Assembly: GCA_903875575.1 (NCBI GenBank)
Contig: CAIQWJ010000005.1
Location: forward strand, 123,914 to 187,913
Reading direction: 5' to 3'
DNA: 64,000 bases
Source: an uncultured Acidobacteriia bacterium
GTDB taxonomy: Bacteria; Acidobacteriota; Terriglobia; Bryobacterales; Bryobacteraceae
How positions within the stretch are numbered: the stretch's first letter is position 1; every line of letters begins with the position of its first letter. This document shows positions 21,727 to 50,832 of this stretch, piece by piece. The position numbers and the translations under genes were made by a program. The notes under the pieces are model-generated. The model was not told where the DNA came from and searched no databases. It saw only the letters and a list, made by a program, of their open reading frames with translations.

Positions 21727-22935
21727 CTACTTCCCGGCGTGAACCGCTCTGGCCAGCGCCACCAGGCCGATGGCCTCCGTTTTCTCATCCAGCGAGAACC
21801 GGTCGGTCCCCGGATAAACCACAAACCGCTTCTTCGGTTTCAGATCCGTACAGGCCGAGTGAAACCCGCGCTCCACCCCTGGCGCTGAACTTCGCTTCAC
21901 CTCTATCGCCCAGAGCTTCCCGCCCGGCAGCGTCAGGATGAGATCGATCTCCGTTCCGTTGGAGGTCCGATAGTAGTGCGCCTCGGTTCCCTCGGGAGCC
22001 ACCATGATGAGGTTCTCAATCACGAAACTCTCCCAGGTTTGCCCCACCACCGGATGGCCAAGCAACGCCTCCTTGTCCCGAATCCCCAGCAGCGCGTGCG
22101 CCACGCCACTGTCGCGCACCCAGACCTTGGGCGACTTGATCAGCCGCTTCCCCATATTGCGGTGCCAGGCCGGCAAACGGCGCACCAGCAGCAAATCCAC
22201 CAAAAGATCCAGATACCCCGCCACCGTCTTGCCATCCACGCCCAGGCCGGATGCCAGGTTGGCCGCGTTCAGCACCTGCGCCTGGTTGTGGGCCAGCATG
22301 GTCCAGAAACGGCGCAGCGTCTCCGCCGGAACCCGCGAGCCAAACTGCGGTGCATCGCGCTCCAGATAAGTGCGAATGAAACTGCGCCGCCACTCCATGC
22401 TGAGATCGTCCGTCTCCGCGAGAAAACTGCGGGGAAAGCCGCCTCGTACCCAAAGTTTGTCGAGCGCCTTCGGGTCCGTTGCGGCAGACTCCAGTTCCAG
22501 CGCACCGAAAGGTCCCAGCTCCAGATAGGAGATTCGCCCCGCCAGGCTCTCGCCGGATTGCCGCAGCAAATCCATCGAAGCCGAACCGAGCAGCAATAAT
22601 CGCCCAGTCCCCCTGCCCTGTCGCCGCCCCCGGTCAATCACACCGCGCAGCGGCTGGAACAACTCCGGTATCCGCTGCACCTCGTCCAGGATCACTAACT
22701 CCCGCTCGTGATCCGCCATATAGCGGGCGACGCTGGCGAGTTTCGCCCGATCCTCCGGCTCCTCAAGGTCCAGATACACGGAGGTCAGCTGCTCGCCAAC
22801 CTCAAGTGCCAGTGTGGTTTTACCAACCTGCCGCGGCCCCAGCAGAACGACTGCCGGCGAATGCTGCAGCAGGTATTTCAGGCGGTCGCCCAGGCTGCGC
22901 CCGAAGATGTATGTATTTGTGGGGGCCGCCTCCAT
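21727..22935 (-). CDS. AAA_14 / DUF4143 ATPase
   Basis: 402 residues. Walker A G-P-R-Q-V-G-K-T is at 33-40, Walker B L-V-I-L-D-E-V-Q near 80, and L-L-L-G-S-A-S-M is the sensor region. The C-terminal DUF4143 domain has the conserved S-P-K-V-W-V-R-D-S-G-V-A-H-A-L-L segment and an E-I-D-L-I-L nuclease-like PD-(D/E)XK remnant. Families of this type are common accessory ATPases of unknown function. The ATG is inside a hairpin repeat and only 6 bases after a -10-like hexamer, implying a leaderless message. A second family member is at 49675-50832. Confidence 0.88.
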   Translation of the reverse strand: MEAAPTNTYIFGRSLGDRLKYLLQHSPAVVLLGPRQVGKTTLALEVGEQLTSVYLDLEEPEDRAKLASVARYMADHERELVILDEVQRIPELFQPLRGVIDRGRRQGRGTGRLLLLGSASMDLLRQSGESLAGRISYLELGPFGALELESAATDPKALDKLWVRGGFPRSFLAETDDLSMEWRRSFIRTYLERDAPQFGSRVPAETLRRFWTMLAHNQAQVLNAANLASGLGVDGKTVAGYLDLLVDLLLVRRLPAWHRNMGKRLIKSPKVWVRDSGVAHALLGIRDKEALLGHPVVGQTWESFVIENLIMVAPEGTEAHYYRTSNGTEIDLILTLPGGKLWAIEVKRSSAPGVERGFHSACTDLKPKKRFVVYPGTDRFSLDEKTEAIGLVALARAVHAGK

Positions 22936-22945
22936 AAATACATAC
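22909..22945. repeat. Hairpin repeat copy 3, spanning the ATPase start codon
   Basis: Arms GTATGTATTTGTGGGG (22909-22924) and CTCCATAAATACATAC (22930-22945) flank a 5-base centre; 14 of 16 positions pair. It has the same 16-5-16 geometry as the two upstream copies and covers codons 1-9 of the AAA/DUF4143 gene, so the arm nearest the promoter contains both the start codon and part of the -10. Confidence 0.8.
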
Positions 22946-22969
22946 TATCAGTCCTTATCCTGTCGTCAA
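22942..22969 (-). promoter_or_regulatory. Predicted promoter of AAA/DUF4143 gene
   Basis: On the minus strand, TTGACG (22969-22964) and TAGTAT (22947-22942) are separated by 16 bases. Only 6 bases separate the -10-like hexamer from the ATG, so transcription would begin at or next to the start codon. The -10 overlaps hairpin copy 3. Confidence 0.5.
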
Positions 22970-22976
22970 CCTTCAG

Positions 22977-23013
22977 GTATGTATATCTGGAGCTTACCTC
23001 CAGATATACATAC
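22977..23013. repeat. Hairpin repeat copy 1
   Basis: Perfect inverted repeat: arms GTATGTATATCTGGAG (22977-22992) and its exact complement (22998-23013) around CTTAC. Lies 8 bases upstream of the predicted -35 of the AAA/DUF4143 gene. Could be an operator for a dimeric or multimeric regulator, or a structured mobile repeat. Confidence 0.9.
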
Positions 23014-23055
23014 TTCGCCGCAAATACCCCGTTCGCCGCATGCCTGTTTTTCACA

Positions 23056-23094
23056 AGTATGTATATATGGAGCCTATCTCCATATATACATACT
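23056..23094. repeat. Hairpin repeat copy 2
   Basis: Perfect 17-bp stem: arms AGTATGTATATATGGAG (23056-23072) and complement (23078-23094) around CCTAT. It differs from copy 1 by a compensated change (C-G pair replaced by A-T). It begins immediately after the stop codon of the TrmH gene, but there is no U-run, so it is not a classical terminator. Confidence 0.9.
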
Positions 23095-23640
23095 TCACAC
23101 AAACCGGCTGCGATACTTCCGCAGCAGCTCATACAACACCACCCCCCCCGCCGTAGCCACATTCAACGAGTGTTTCCGCCCCAGCATGGGAATCCGCACG
23201 TGCGTATCCGCCAGCCCTCCCAGCTCCGGCGTCAGCCCGTCTGTCTCATGGCCAAAAAGCACGCACACGGGAAAACGCGGCTGCCAGTCGAACAGATCCA
23301 CCGCATGAACGCTGGTCTCGATAGCTGCAATTTCACAACCGCGAGCCCGAAGCGCCAGCACCATATCCCGCGCGTCGCTCACGCGTTCCCACGGCAGCGT
23401 CTCCTCCGCCCCCAGCGCGGTCTTCGAGATCATCTTCTGCGGCGGATAGCCCGTAATTCCGGCAAGATAAAGCTTTTCGAGCGACACCGCATCGCCGGTA
23501 CGAAAGAACGCCCCCACGTTGTAAAGGCTGCGCACATTTTCCAGCAAAACGCTCACCGGCAGCGGCCCGATCCCTGCCCATGCGGCGGCCGCCTCCGTCG
23601 CCCGATACGGAACCCGTTCGTTTTCCATAATCCTTTTCAT
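23095..23640 (-). CDS. TrmH/SpoU-family RNA 2'-O-methyltransferase
   Basis: About 181 residues of SPOUT methyltransferase. Motif 1 is L-L-E-N-V-R-S-L-Y-N-V-G-A-F-F-R-T, motif 2 V-L-F-G-H-E-T-D-G-L and motif 3 I-P-M-L-G-R-K-H-S-L-N-V-A-T-A; all catalytic positions are present. It lacks an RNA-binding extension, so tRNA or rRNA target is undecided. Three starts compete: TTG 23649, ATG 23640 and ATG 23628; GGAGG sits directly before 23640 and 12 bases before 23628, so 23628 is also possible. Divergent from the glycosyltransferase gene. Confidence 0.85.
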   Translation of the reverse strand: MKRIMENERVPYRATEAAAAWAGIGPLPVSVLLENVRSLYNVGAFFRTGDAVSLEKLYLAGITGYPPQKMISKTALGAEETLPWERVSDARDMVLALRARGCEIAAIETSVHAVDLFDWQPRFPVCVLFGHETDGLTPELGGLADTHVRIPMLGRKHSLNVATAGGVVLYELLRKYRSRFV

Positions 23641-23670
23641 CCTCCGCAACGCTAGAATAGAATCTTAACG

Positions 23671-24639
23671 ATGCTGTCACTCGTCGTCCCCATTCATAAC
23701 GAAGAGCATTCCATACTGCCGCTCTACGACCGGCTGACGGCCGTGCTCCGTACTGTACCCGGCACCTACGAAATCCTCTTCGTGGACGACGCCTCTACCG
23801 ACCGCAGCCACGAACTTCTGGCCAACCTGGTGCAGACCGATGGACGCCTCAAGGTGATCCGCCTCCGCCGCAATTTCGGCCAGACCGCCGCGCTTTCCGC
23901 CGGTTTCCATGAAGCGAAAGGCGACGTCATCATCGCGATGGATGGCGATCTGCAGCACGCCCCGGAAGACATTCCCGCCCTGCTCAAGCCGATCAGCGAA
24001 GGTTACGATATCGCCAGCGGCTGGCGTCACGAACGCGCCGATAACGCCCTCACCCGGCGTCTGCCTTCGAAAATCGCCAACTGGCTGATGGCAAAAGCTT
24101 CCGGCATGGACCTGCACGATTTCGGCACGACGTTCAAAGCGTACCGGGCCGAAGTCCTCGCGGACGTCCATCTTTACGGTGAACTGCACCGCTTCATTCC
24201 GGCGCTCGCCAGCGTCTATGGCGCGCGCGTCATCGAGGTGCCGATTCAGAATCCACCCCGCGGCGGCGGTGTCTCGCACTACGGGCTGAGCCGCACATTT
24301 CGCGTTCTGTTTGACATCTTAACCATCCGTTTTTTGCTGAAGTACGCCACCCGCCCCATGCACTTCTTCGGCGCAATCGGCCTTGCGGGAACCAGTTCCG
24401 GCTCGCTGATTCTCGGCTATTGTCTTGTACTGAAGCTGTTCACCCGAATCGACATCATTCAGGAGCACGGGCCGCTGATGCTGGCTGGCGCCATGCTGCT
24501 GATCGTGGGCATGATGATGTTCTCCACCGGCCTGATTGGCGAACTGGTCATGAGGACCTACTTTGAATCCCAAAACCGCCGCATCTACGCGGTACGTGAC
24601 ATTCTGACGCGACACCCGGGCGAACGCCAGCCCCTCTGA
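23671..24639 (+). CDS. GT2 glycosyltransferase, polyprenyl-phosphate sugar type
   Basis: 322 residues resembling DPM1/GtrB/ArnC enzymes that transfer a sugar from a nucleotide donor to undecaprenyl phosphate. The GT-A domain (1-225) contains V-D-D-A-S-T-D-R near 31, the D-G-D-L-Q metal motif near 90, and R-N-F-G-Q near 70. Two C-terminal TM helices (about 232-255 and 268-292) anchor it in the inner membrane. It is convergent with the TrmB-like regulator, 24 bases apart. Donor sugar is not deducible. Confidence 0.88.
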   Translation: MLSLVVPIHNEEHSILPLYDRLTAVLRTVPGTYEILFVDDASTDRSHELLANLVQTDGRLKVIRLRRNFGQTAALSAGFHEAKGDVIIAMDGDLQHAPEDIPALLKPISEGYDIASGWRHERADNALTRRLPSKIANWLMAKASGMDLHDFGTTFKAYRAEVLADVHLYGELHRFIPALASVYGARVIEVPIQNPPRGGGVSHYGLSRTFRVLFDILTIRFLLKYATRPMHFFGAIGLAGTSSGSLILGYCLVLKLFTRIDIIQEHGPLMLAGAMLLIVGMMMFSTGLIGELVMRTYFESQNRRIYAVRDILTRHPGERQPL

Positions 24640-49559: not shown

Positions 49560-49648
49560 TGTCAAGAAGAAACTTCAGGGAACCGCACCCTCCAGCGAAA
49601 CAGGACTCCGGCTGTTCACCGTCAGCCGGAATTCCATTGATGCATAAA

Positions 49649-49668
49649 ATACGATTTCATCGTATAAT
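49649..49668 (+). promoter_or_regulatory. Palindrome and -10 box of second AAA/DUF4143 gene
   Basis: ATACGAT TTC ATCGTAT (49649-49665) overlaps a consensus TATAAT at 49663-49668. Only 6 bases separate the -10 from the ATG at 49675. No consensus -35 is at ideal spacing. Confidence 0.6.
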
Positions 49669-49674
49669 TTGCAT

Positions 49675-50832
49675 ATGTGGATTCCCCGCGACGTCGAACC
49701 CCGGCTCCTGCGCTCCGCCAAAACCCGCCCCGTACTCGTCCTCACCGGAGCCCGGCAAACGGGCAAGACCTCCACTCTGCTGCGCCTGTTTCCAAAGTAT
49801 TCATTTGTCTCTCTGGACCTTCCCAGTGAAGGCGAACAGGCCGAGAAAGAACCTCGCCTCTTTCTCCAGCGCCATCCTCCGCCAGTCATCGTCGACGAAG
49901 TGCAATATGCGCCCGCACTTTTCCGGCACCTGAAAGTGGAGGTCGATGCCAACCGCGCGCGGAACGGTCAGTTTCTCCTCACGGGATCGCAGAAGTTCGC
50001 CCTCATGAAGAATGTTTCCGAATCGCTGGCGGGCAGGGTCGACATCGTGGAACTCGAAACCCTGTCGCTTTCCGAGATCAGGAACGCGCTGCCACAAACC
50101 AGCATCGAGACGGCCATCGTGCGCGGCGGCTTCCCCGAACTCTACGCCAATCCGGAGATTGATGCCACGGCTTTCTGCAACTCTTACCTGGTCACCTACC
50201 TCGAACGCGATGTCCGCGCCCTCGCCAACGTAGGCAGCCTTCGCGACTTCGAGAGGTTTCTTCGGGCGTGCGCGCTCCGGTCCGGCAACCTCCTGAATAA
50301 GGCCGACCTCGCGAGAGACGTGGGCATCGCCCCTTCCACCGCAAACCAGTGGCTATCCGTACTCGAAGCCTCCGGCCAAATCGTCTTGCTCGAACCGTGG
50401 TTCGCCAACCGCACCAAGTCCATGGTCAAGAGTCCGAAGCTCTACCTCGCCGATACAGGACTGCTTTGCACTCTGCTCAATATTCGTTCGGAGGAAGCCC
50501 TGCGCCAGTCTCCCATGTGTGGTGCAATCTGGGAAACGTTTGTCTTCGCTCAGCTTCGCCATCGTGAGCGCCAGGCCGGGCGCACCGGCAGCCTCTTCTT
50601 CTGGCGCGACAGAACCAGAGAAGTAGATTTTGTAGTGGATGCAGGCGGCTCCCTGGAATTACTGGAAGCTAAGTGGACCGAACTACCAGATCGCGGTGAT
50701 ACCGTCAATCTCAGCCACGTACGCGAGGCTCTGGGCAAGACGCGAGTCAAAGTTGCAGCGGTAGTCTCCCGCGCGCCGAATGCCTACCCGTTGGCCGAAG
50801 GGTTTCGGGCGATACCGGTGACGGACTTGTAG
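49675..50832 (+). CDS. AAA_14 / DUF4143 ATPase, second copy
   Basis: 385 residues. Walker A G-A-R-Q-T-G-K-T at 25-32, Walker B P-V-I-V-D-E-V-Q near 70, sensor L-L-T-G-S-Q. DUF4143 with S-P-K-L-Y-L-A-D-T-G-L-L and a V-D-F-V-V-D PD-(D/E)XK-like segment at the C-terminus, followed by E-A-K-W. Same domain architecture as the 21727-22935 gene but clearly diverged. The start codon is 6 bases after the -10 hexamer, so the message is probably leaderless. A TTG 6 bases upstream is in frame but would fall at the expected transcription start. Confidence 0.88.
   Translation: MWIPRDVEPRLLRSAKTRPVLVLTGARQTGKTSTLLRLFPKYSFVSLDLPSEGEQAEKEPRLFLQRHPPPVIVDEVQYAPALFRHLKVEVDANRARNGQFLLTGSQKFALMKNVSESLAGRVDIVELETLSLSEIRNALPQTSIETAIVRGGFPELYANPEIDATAFCNSYLVTYLERDVRALANVGSLRDFERFLRACALRSGNLLNKADLARDVGIAPSTANQWLSVLEASGQIVLLEPWFANRTKSMVKSPKLYLADTGLLCTLLNIRSEEALRQSPMCGAIWETFVFAQLRHRERQAGRTGSLFFWRDRTREVDFVVDAGGSLELLEAKWTELPDRGDTVNLSHVREALGKTRVKVAAVVSRAPNAYPLAEGFRAIPVTDL

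Follow-up and report, generated by a model that had tools for sequence, protein, structure and literature searches.

Three palindromes in front of a PDC-S01 family ATPase gene in an uncultured Acidobacteriia bacterium probably serve as operators that the adjacent ATPase binds as a dimer, and sequence comparison leads us to predict that the bound protein represses its own promoter. A recognition code between ATPase residues and palindrome bases, together with start-codon palindromes that follow the gene, makes operators of the ATPase itself the most likely identity of these repeats. PDC-S01 is a common candidate for phage defence; the sections of one survey that deal with it describe an ATPase fused to a PD-(D/E)XK member, rank it as the fourth most common defence across prokaryotes (29,494 bacterial and 9,986 archaeal systems), give no tested function for it, and call validation of most PDCs pending (PMC12988326). 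The main text of that survey does not mention palindromes, inverted repeats, promoters, or autoregulation. The portions available of the literature on DUF4143, COG1373, PDC-S01, and AAA_14 in connection with palindromes, and on defence autoregulation, held no description of this operator.

The palindromes and the adjacent ATPase gene

In the window (the whole 64-kb stretch of DNA analysed), inverted repeats with a 16-5-16 layout are centred at three points, 22927, 22995, and 23075; a pairing scan bore out this arrangement, given in a preliminary description of the sequence, and found at least 13 of 16 pairs at this geometry nowhere else in the window. The gene-proximal candidate operator, copy 1 (22909..22945), has 14 of 16 pairs and holds the first ATG (22933-22935) of the ATPase open reading frame. 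Copy 2 (22977..23013; E = 8e-7 in a covariance model of the family, R1) and copy 3 (23057..23093; E = 2e-7) pair at 16 of 16 positions, and copy 3 lies just past the stop codon of a SpoU-family RNA methyltransferase gene, which it adjoins. The preliminary description had taken copies 1 and 2 to be the perfect ones and copy 3 to span the start codon; the ATPase gene lies on the minus strand, and it is copy 1 that overlaps the first ATG. The paired substitution that it reported between copies (C-G to A-T) is real, at half-site position 11. Half-site matches with at most three mismatches number six in the window; each of 100 shuffles had fewer, with an average of 0.23. A genome search at the same tolerance found three palindrome copies, all at this one locus.

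The gene (21727..22935, minus strand) encodes a 402-residue AAA_14-DUF4143 ATPase. Both Pfam domains score above their curated cut-offs (85 and 164 bits), the PADLOC model names the protein PDC-S01 (E = 1e-93), and its domain content is like that of PDC-S01 in PADLOC (AAA_14, PF13173; DUF4143, PF13635). In the AlphaFold (AF2) model (pLDDT 92), residues 234-240 (codons 22216..22236, minus strand) open a helix of the winged-helix domain (235-247) that is the putative recognition helix, and residue 326 (codon 21958..21960, minus strand) is in the loop preceding the nuclease-fold strand that carries D331. The C-terminal part has both the fold and the conserved motif residues of a PD-(D/E)XK nuclease (E329, D331, E345, and K347, within residues 329-347; 21895..21951, minus strand), with fold matches to VRR_NUC, McrC, and Hjc; its nuclease activity is predicted. 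A Foldseek search with this C-terminal domain gave no match at E <= 0.001, NCBIfam returned no family for the ATPase at E 0.001, and a sequence search of the PDB gave weak matches alone; the strongest, with the regulator PA3341, covered residues 222-282 at E = 0.047. An AAA+ plus winged-helix fold is common to the window ATPase and ATPases of the STAND/PH type, which we take to include the archaeal proteins 2qen and 2fna; in alignments with these two and with the Orc1/Cdc6 protein 2v1u, the PD-(D/E)XK tail of the window ATPase is outside the aligned ranges.

The upstream neighbour, the SpoU-family methyltransferase gene (23095..23649, minus strand), provides a syntenic landmark. A second AAA_14-DUF4143 (PDC-S01) ATPase is encoded at 49675..50832 on the plus strand, and an unlike palindrome (L295; score 8.5) abuts its ATG at 49640..49674.

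Palindromes at the start codons of homologues

Of the homologues examined, taken from public genomes and from relatives, about one in two has a palindrome at its start codon, and those that do belong to several phyla. In the first set, 50 of 106 distinct homologue regions have a palindrome with a score of at least 9 at the 5′ end of the gene, versus three upstream controls (counted where upstream sequence sufficed), one of 106 in-gene stretches, and 0.33 per 106 shuffles; nine of 115 regions were left out as late matches (two) or duplicates (seven). In a second set of 95 further matches (about 31-61% identity), a palindrome was found in 51; the controls had one in 7 of 95 stretches inside the gene and in 1 of 93 far upstream. 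At the strict cut-off, the palindrome is absent or unrecognised in about half of the regions of these two sets. In a third set, at least 12 pairs occur in 37 of 67 homologues, versus 6 of 335 shuffles and none of 67 in-gene stretches. The preliminary description had proposed looking for the same array upstream of homologues, and such palindromes do stand at the start codon of many. Among named plasmid and phage records, 5 of 14 reached a score of 9 and nine missed it; ten viral contigs encode an ATPase, and five of these have at least 12 pairs at its start, three of them alike. The single Ruminococcus record had no palindrome. The homologues come mostly from metagenome-assembled genomes (MAGs), with very few from Firmicutes or archaea, and a further ten from closed plasmids served to check the MAG-derived sequences.

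Two plasmid homologues carry perfect palindromes. In a Moraxella bovis plasmid (L203; WP_012477657.1, 31% identity), a 21-bp palindrome with TATAAT at its centre ends 5 nt before the annotated ATG, and in a Runella rosea plasmid (L204; WP_229599612.1, 30% identity) a 20-bp palindrome abuts the ATG.

The consensus of 51 rows with a common centre is CCTTGCAAATCTGGAA..TGCCATAATTGCAAGG, followed by ATG in all 51. These rows and alignment A1 were selected for a centred dyad, so pairing figures derived from them lean toward pairing. The left arms of the 51-row set contain TTGCAA and the right arms yATAAT, with 16 nt between, a geometry that places the predicted transcription start at the ATG. A box with at least five of the six letters of the -10 element is present in 52 of 111 gene-proximal copies and in none of 13 distal ones (Fisher 6e-4); at multi-copy loci alone the counts are 3 of 10 and 0 of 13. 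Among closed-plasmid records, which were new data, eight are annotated, and in six of these a gap of 0 or 1 nt separates the end of the palindrome from the annotated start. It appears from these figures that a leaderless promoter lies inside the proximal palindrome and that the extra copies are sites only.

ATG directly follows the palindrome in 51 of 51 aligned dyads and in 73 of 111 proximal copies, and M10 is nearly invariant in the ATPase alignment, in which the starts were picked nearest the post-palindrome place. The window copies match the -10 element poorly and the consensus ATG has been lost: the spot right after copy 1 where many homologues have ATG is occupied by ATC (Ile10; 22906..22908, minus strand), perhaps a sign of drift. 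Translation of the window ATPase therefore probably starts at the in-frame ATG within copy 1.

Palindrome loci hold one to three copies, and ATPase matches reach 22 in one genome. When run on 101 related genomes, covariance model R1, built from the 51-row set, gave matches at 77 places in 34 of them. Sixty-one of these places lie 206 nt or less from the 5′ end of an ATPase match, all on its 5′ side; the comparison covered most of the listed ATPase matches, and the DNA around each of the 16 unmatched places was then inspected directly. Four of the 16 have an ATPase or a fragment of one alongside (one fragment is weak, E = 9e-5), and 12 of the 77 have none in the surrounding stretch, two of these with an ATPase about 3 kb off. 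A mobile cassette bounded by the repeat would have copies at both gene ends, but all 61 gene-linked matches are at the 5′ side.

Some lone copies are well preserved. One genome (G014) has three (L184, L185, and L186), two of them nearly perfect, and its sole listed ATPase match is distant (33%) and elsewhere in the genome. Two others (L191 in G070 and L194 in G076) occupy apparently the same place in both genomes and have kept their symmetry; an adjacent open reading frame appears to resemble that of glutamine synthetase.

A SpoU match is present in 59 of 61 genomes, and comparison of 30 SpoU loci revealed a palindrome after the gene in four: the window, G012 (one copy, with the ATPase split over three matches), and G008 and G006 (a palindrome without an ATPase). 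No palindrome was seen in the 230 nt after SpoU, read by eye, in the other 26. The most economical history has a single gain and a later loss of the gene that left the operator behind; insertion of the ATPase next to a pre-existing palindrome is also conceivable. When G006, G008, and G012 were compared with the window locus by blastn, there were no alignments from which the exact gain/loss junction could be read. A short frame past the lone SpoU palindrome of G008 (L120, 1538-1745) resembles what we take to be the remnant of a HigB-type toxin.

Covariation between ATPase residues and palindrome bases

Palindrome sequence differs between ATPase subfamilies and follows the ATPase, not the host. 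In the genome of the window, each of five paralogues compared, including the second window ATPase, has its own palindrome. Across genomes, same-genome paralogues with less than 45% protein identity have a mean palindrome identity of 0.475 (47 pairs); with phylum labels assigned by hand from record titles, the value for distant between-phyla pairs is 0.481, rising to 0.636 at 60-70% protein identity (336 pairs) and 0.686 at 70% or more (30 pairs). Same-genome pairs above 60% protein identity number just two, and their palindrome identity is 0.514.

Couplings between protein residues and palindrome bases were computed with APC correction from 103 ATPase-palindrome pairs, the two arms being treated separately; 111 pairs had been kept from 210 loci, selected by palindrome score. 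The strongest couplings, found in each arm separately, join residue 236 to bases 13 and 14, 234 to base 14, 240 to base 15, and 326 to base 3; residue 326 is also strongly coupled to base 2 on the left arm. Mean covariation by domain is nearly flat (winged helix, 1.72; AAA, 1.56; nuclease, 1.45), and a handful of residues, but no domain as a whole, carry the signal. On left arms, K236 accompanies GG at bases 13-14 (44 of 50), Q236 CC at 14-15 (13 of 15), and V236 and P236 A at 14 (15 of 16 and 7 of 7, respectively), and residue 326 pairs as A326 with T3 and N326 with A3; N236 accompanies GCA in seven of seven cases on both arms. The window ATPase, with K236 and N326, is predicted to have GG at 13-14 and A at 3, and all three copies comply (GGA/GGG and GTA).

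A prediction rule was fixed in writing before a new homologue set was read, of which 48 of 67 proteins were usable (one of 68 lacked a region), all with at most 80% identity to the training proteins. The rule was correct for 57 of 66 arm-bases at base 14 (permutation mean 0.42), 51 of 58 at base 13 (0.44), and 37 of 42 at base 3 (0.57), and for each of these bases none of 5,000 permutations matched it; the permutation figures are optimistic because the new set holds some near-duplicate pairs. A looser pair cut-off gave 65/74, 54/66, and 39/44 for bases 14, 13, and 3, and a stricter one 48/52, 42/44, and 31/34. Nine of the ten closed plasmids have at least 11 pairs (the dyad of L389 has 8), and the rule was right in 16/18, 12/14, and 13/16 cases; three of the ten are 81-89% identical to training proteins, and for L391 the agnostic register was plainly wrong.

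To correct for shared ancestry, 294 residues were ranked by their co-changes on a 143-protein tree from which the covarying segments had been left out. For base 14, residue 234 ranks first (15 co-changes versus 3.6 expected, p = 2.7e-8) and 236 second (12 versus 3.6, p = 2.3e-5); for base 3, residue 326 ranks first (20 versus 7.8, p = 2.1e-6). For base 13, residue 236 is third, behind 238 and 248. Residue 240 was not significant with base 15 on the tree (p = 0.29) and ranks fifth with base 16. Covariation of winged-helix residues 234 and 236 with inner half-site bases, and of residue 326 with outer ones, thus persists after tree correction in these sequence sets. The ATPase is likely to bind the palindromes, because its predicted DNA-reading residues covary with the repeat bases across many bacteria.

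Alternative explanations and a possible defence circuit

The preliminary description had left the array as either an operator for the ATPase gene or a structured RNA or REP-like mobile repeat. The operator is now strongly supported by the start-codon palindromes of homologues, their subfamily-specific sequence, and the residue-base covariation.

Another use of the same contacts is improbable but deserves the most weight among the alternatives: the palindrome could be mainly a cleavage or parking site, where the PD-(D/E)XK domain, on activation, would nick or cut the outer half-site that it reads. Residue 326, ranked first for covariation with outer base 3, is five before D331 of the motif, the motif residues and fold are those of a nuclease, palindromes occur alone, and loci carry one to three copies. 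It would be costly for the protein to cut its own promoter, however, and the sites are retained next to intact genes; many proximal copies are promoter-like as well. A search of IMG/VR with two strict patterns for lone sites that might be phage targets found them in just two contigs, which share one sequence and lack an ATPase; the second pattern gave none in viral contigs.

Control of translation or stability of the ATPase mRNA by leader hairpins is less probable again. The minus strand is predicted to fold strongly (z = -8.9), covarying pairs are found (in rows selected for a centred dyad), and within the inner stem G.T mismatches outnumber A.C ones (36 versus 14). Symmetric protein contacts would explain the covariation, however, and G.T is not commoner than A.C overall (93 versus 97), the outer arms being reversed (34 versus 52). 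A.A and C.T mismatches are frequent at ±10 and ±8, where they place the -10 box in one arm, and the promoter geometry sets the start site at the ATG. Rfam gave no match above gathering score in 22500-23700, where the sub-threshold hits were chance microRNA matches only. The structured RNA of the preliminary description is thus disfavoured, both by the mismatch counts and by the predicted promoter within the palindrome.

Binding by a host regulator instead of the ATPase would account for the lone sites that persist in genomes without a close ATPase, yet it is very unlikely. A host factor would give the opposite of the observed pattern, in which same-genome paralogues have unlike palindromes and cross-phylum homologues share theirs, and the residue-base covariation falls in the recognition helix of the ATPase. 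A REP-like or MITE-like hairpin unrelated to the gene, for which the 12 lone copies among 77 places in 101 genomes might speak, can be dismissed: the three near-identical copies in this genome are all at one locus, not dispersed, the 11 R1 strand matches listed for it, more distant ones included, are all at DUF4143 genes, most R1 places are just upstream of an ATPase, and palindrome bases are predicted by ATPase residues.

If the palindromes are operators of the ATPase, the dimer would place its two recognition helices about 10 bp from each other, measured from one base 14 to the other, and its nuclease-fold domains one turn further out; once bound, it would cover the -35 and -10 elements as well as the transcription start of an mRNA that is probably leaderless. 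Additional upstream copies, of which the window has two, would provide sites that lack a promoter and might tighten repression. Gene and operator together would make up the complete circuit, so that the cassette could pass from one host to another and regulate itself there from the outset.

Self-repressed defence and toxin-antitoxin operons, and the C-proteins of restriction systems, have a palindromic operator over their own promoter, and the gene is often leaderless; a similar operator over its own promoter is predicted for the window ATPase. In contrast to those systems, the regulator here would be the ATPase-nuclease effector itself, in a single gene, and a second DNA-reading module would lie in the nuclease-fold domain.

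A more speculative extension, which we regard as possible though doubtful, is that PDC-S01 is a one-gene immune circuit in which a single protein acts as sensor, repressor, and effector. The ATPase-nuclease would be parked on its own promoter, with the nuclease-fold domains loaded on the outer half-sites, until a phage-induced change in nucleotide state or DNA released it; release would turn on its own gene and free the nuclease at once. Residues 234/236 and 326 would set the operator of each copy, allowing many paralogues to coexist without cross-talk. In a Thermus HB27 study, TT_P0211 is reported to be up 6.6-fold with plasmid DNA in the TtAgo strain (PMC4406477). The T. thermophilus HB27 DUF4143 ATPase gene to which this tag appears to belong (L396, 13854-15074) has a weak palindrome (best 11 of 16 pairs) and is therefore not counted as support.

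As read from sequence, the recognition code would give PDC-S01 a likely DNA ligand, DUF4143 a DNA-reading role, and the system a self-contained control circuit. It would allow operators and true start codons to be predicted for many genes annotated just as "ATP-binding protein", and it would explain how a lone gene with many paralogues can spread between phyla.
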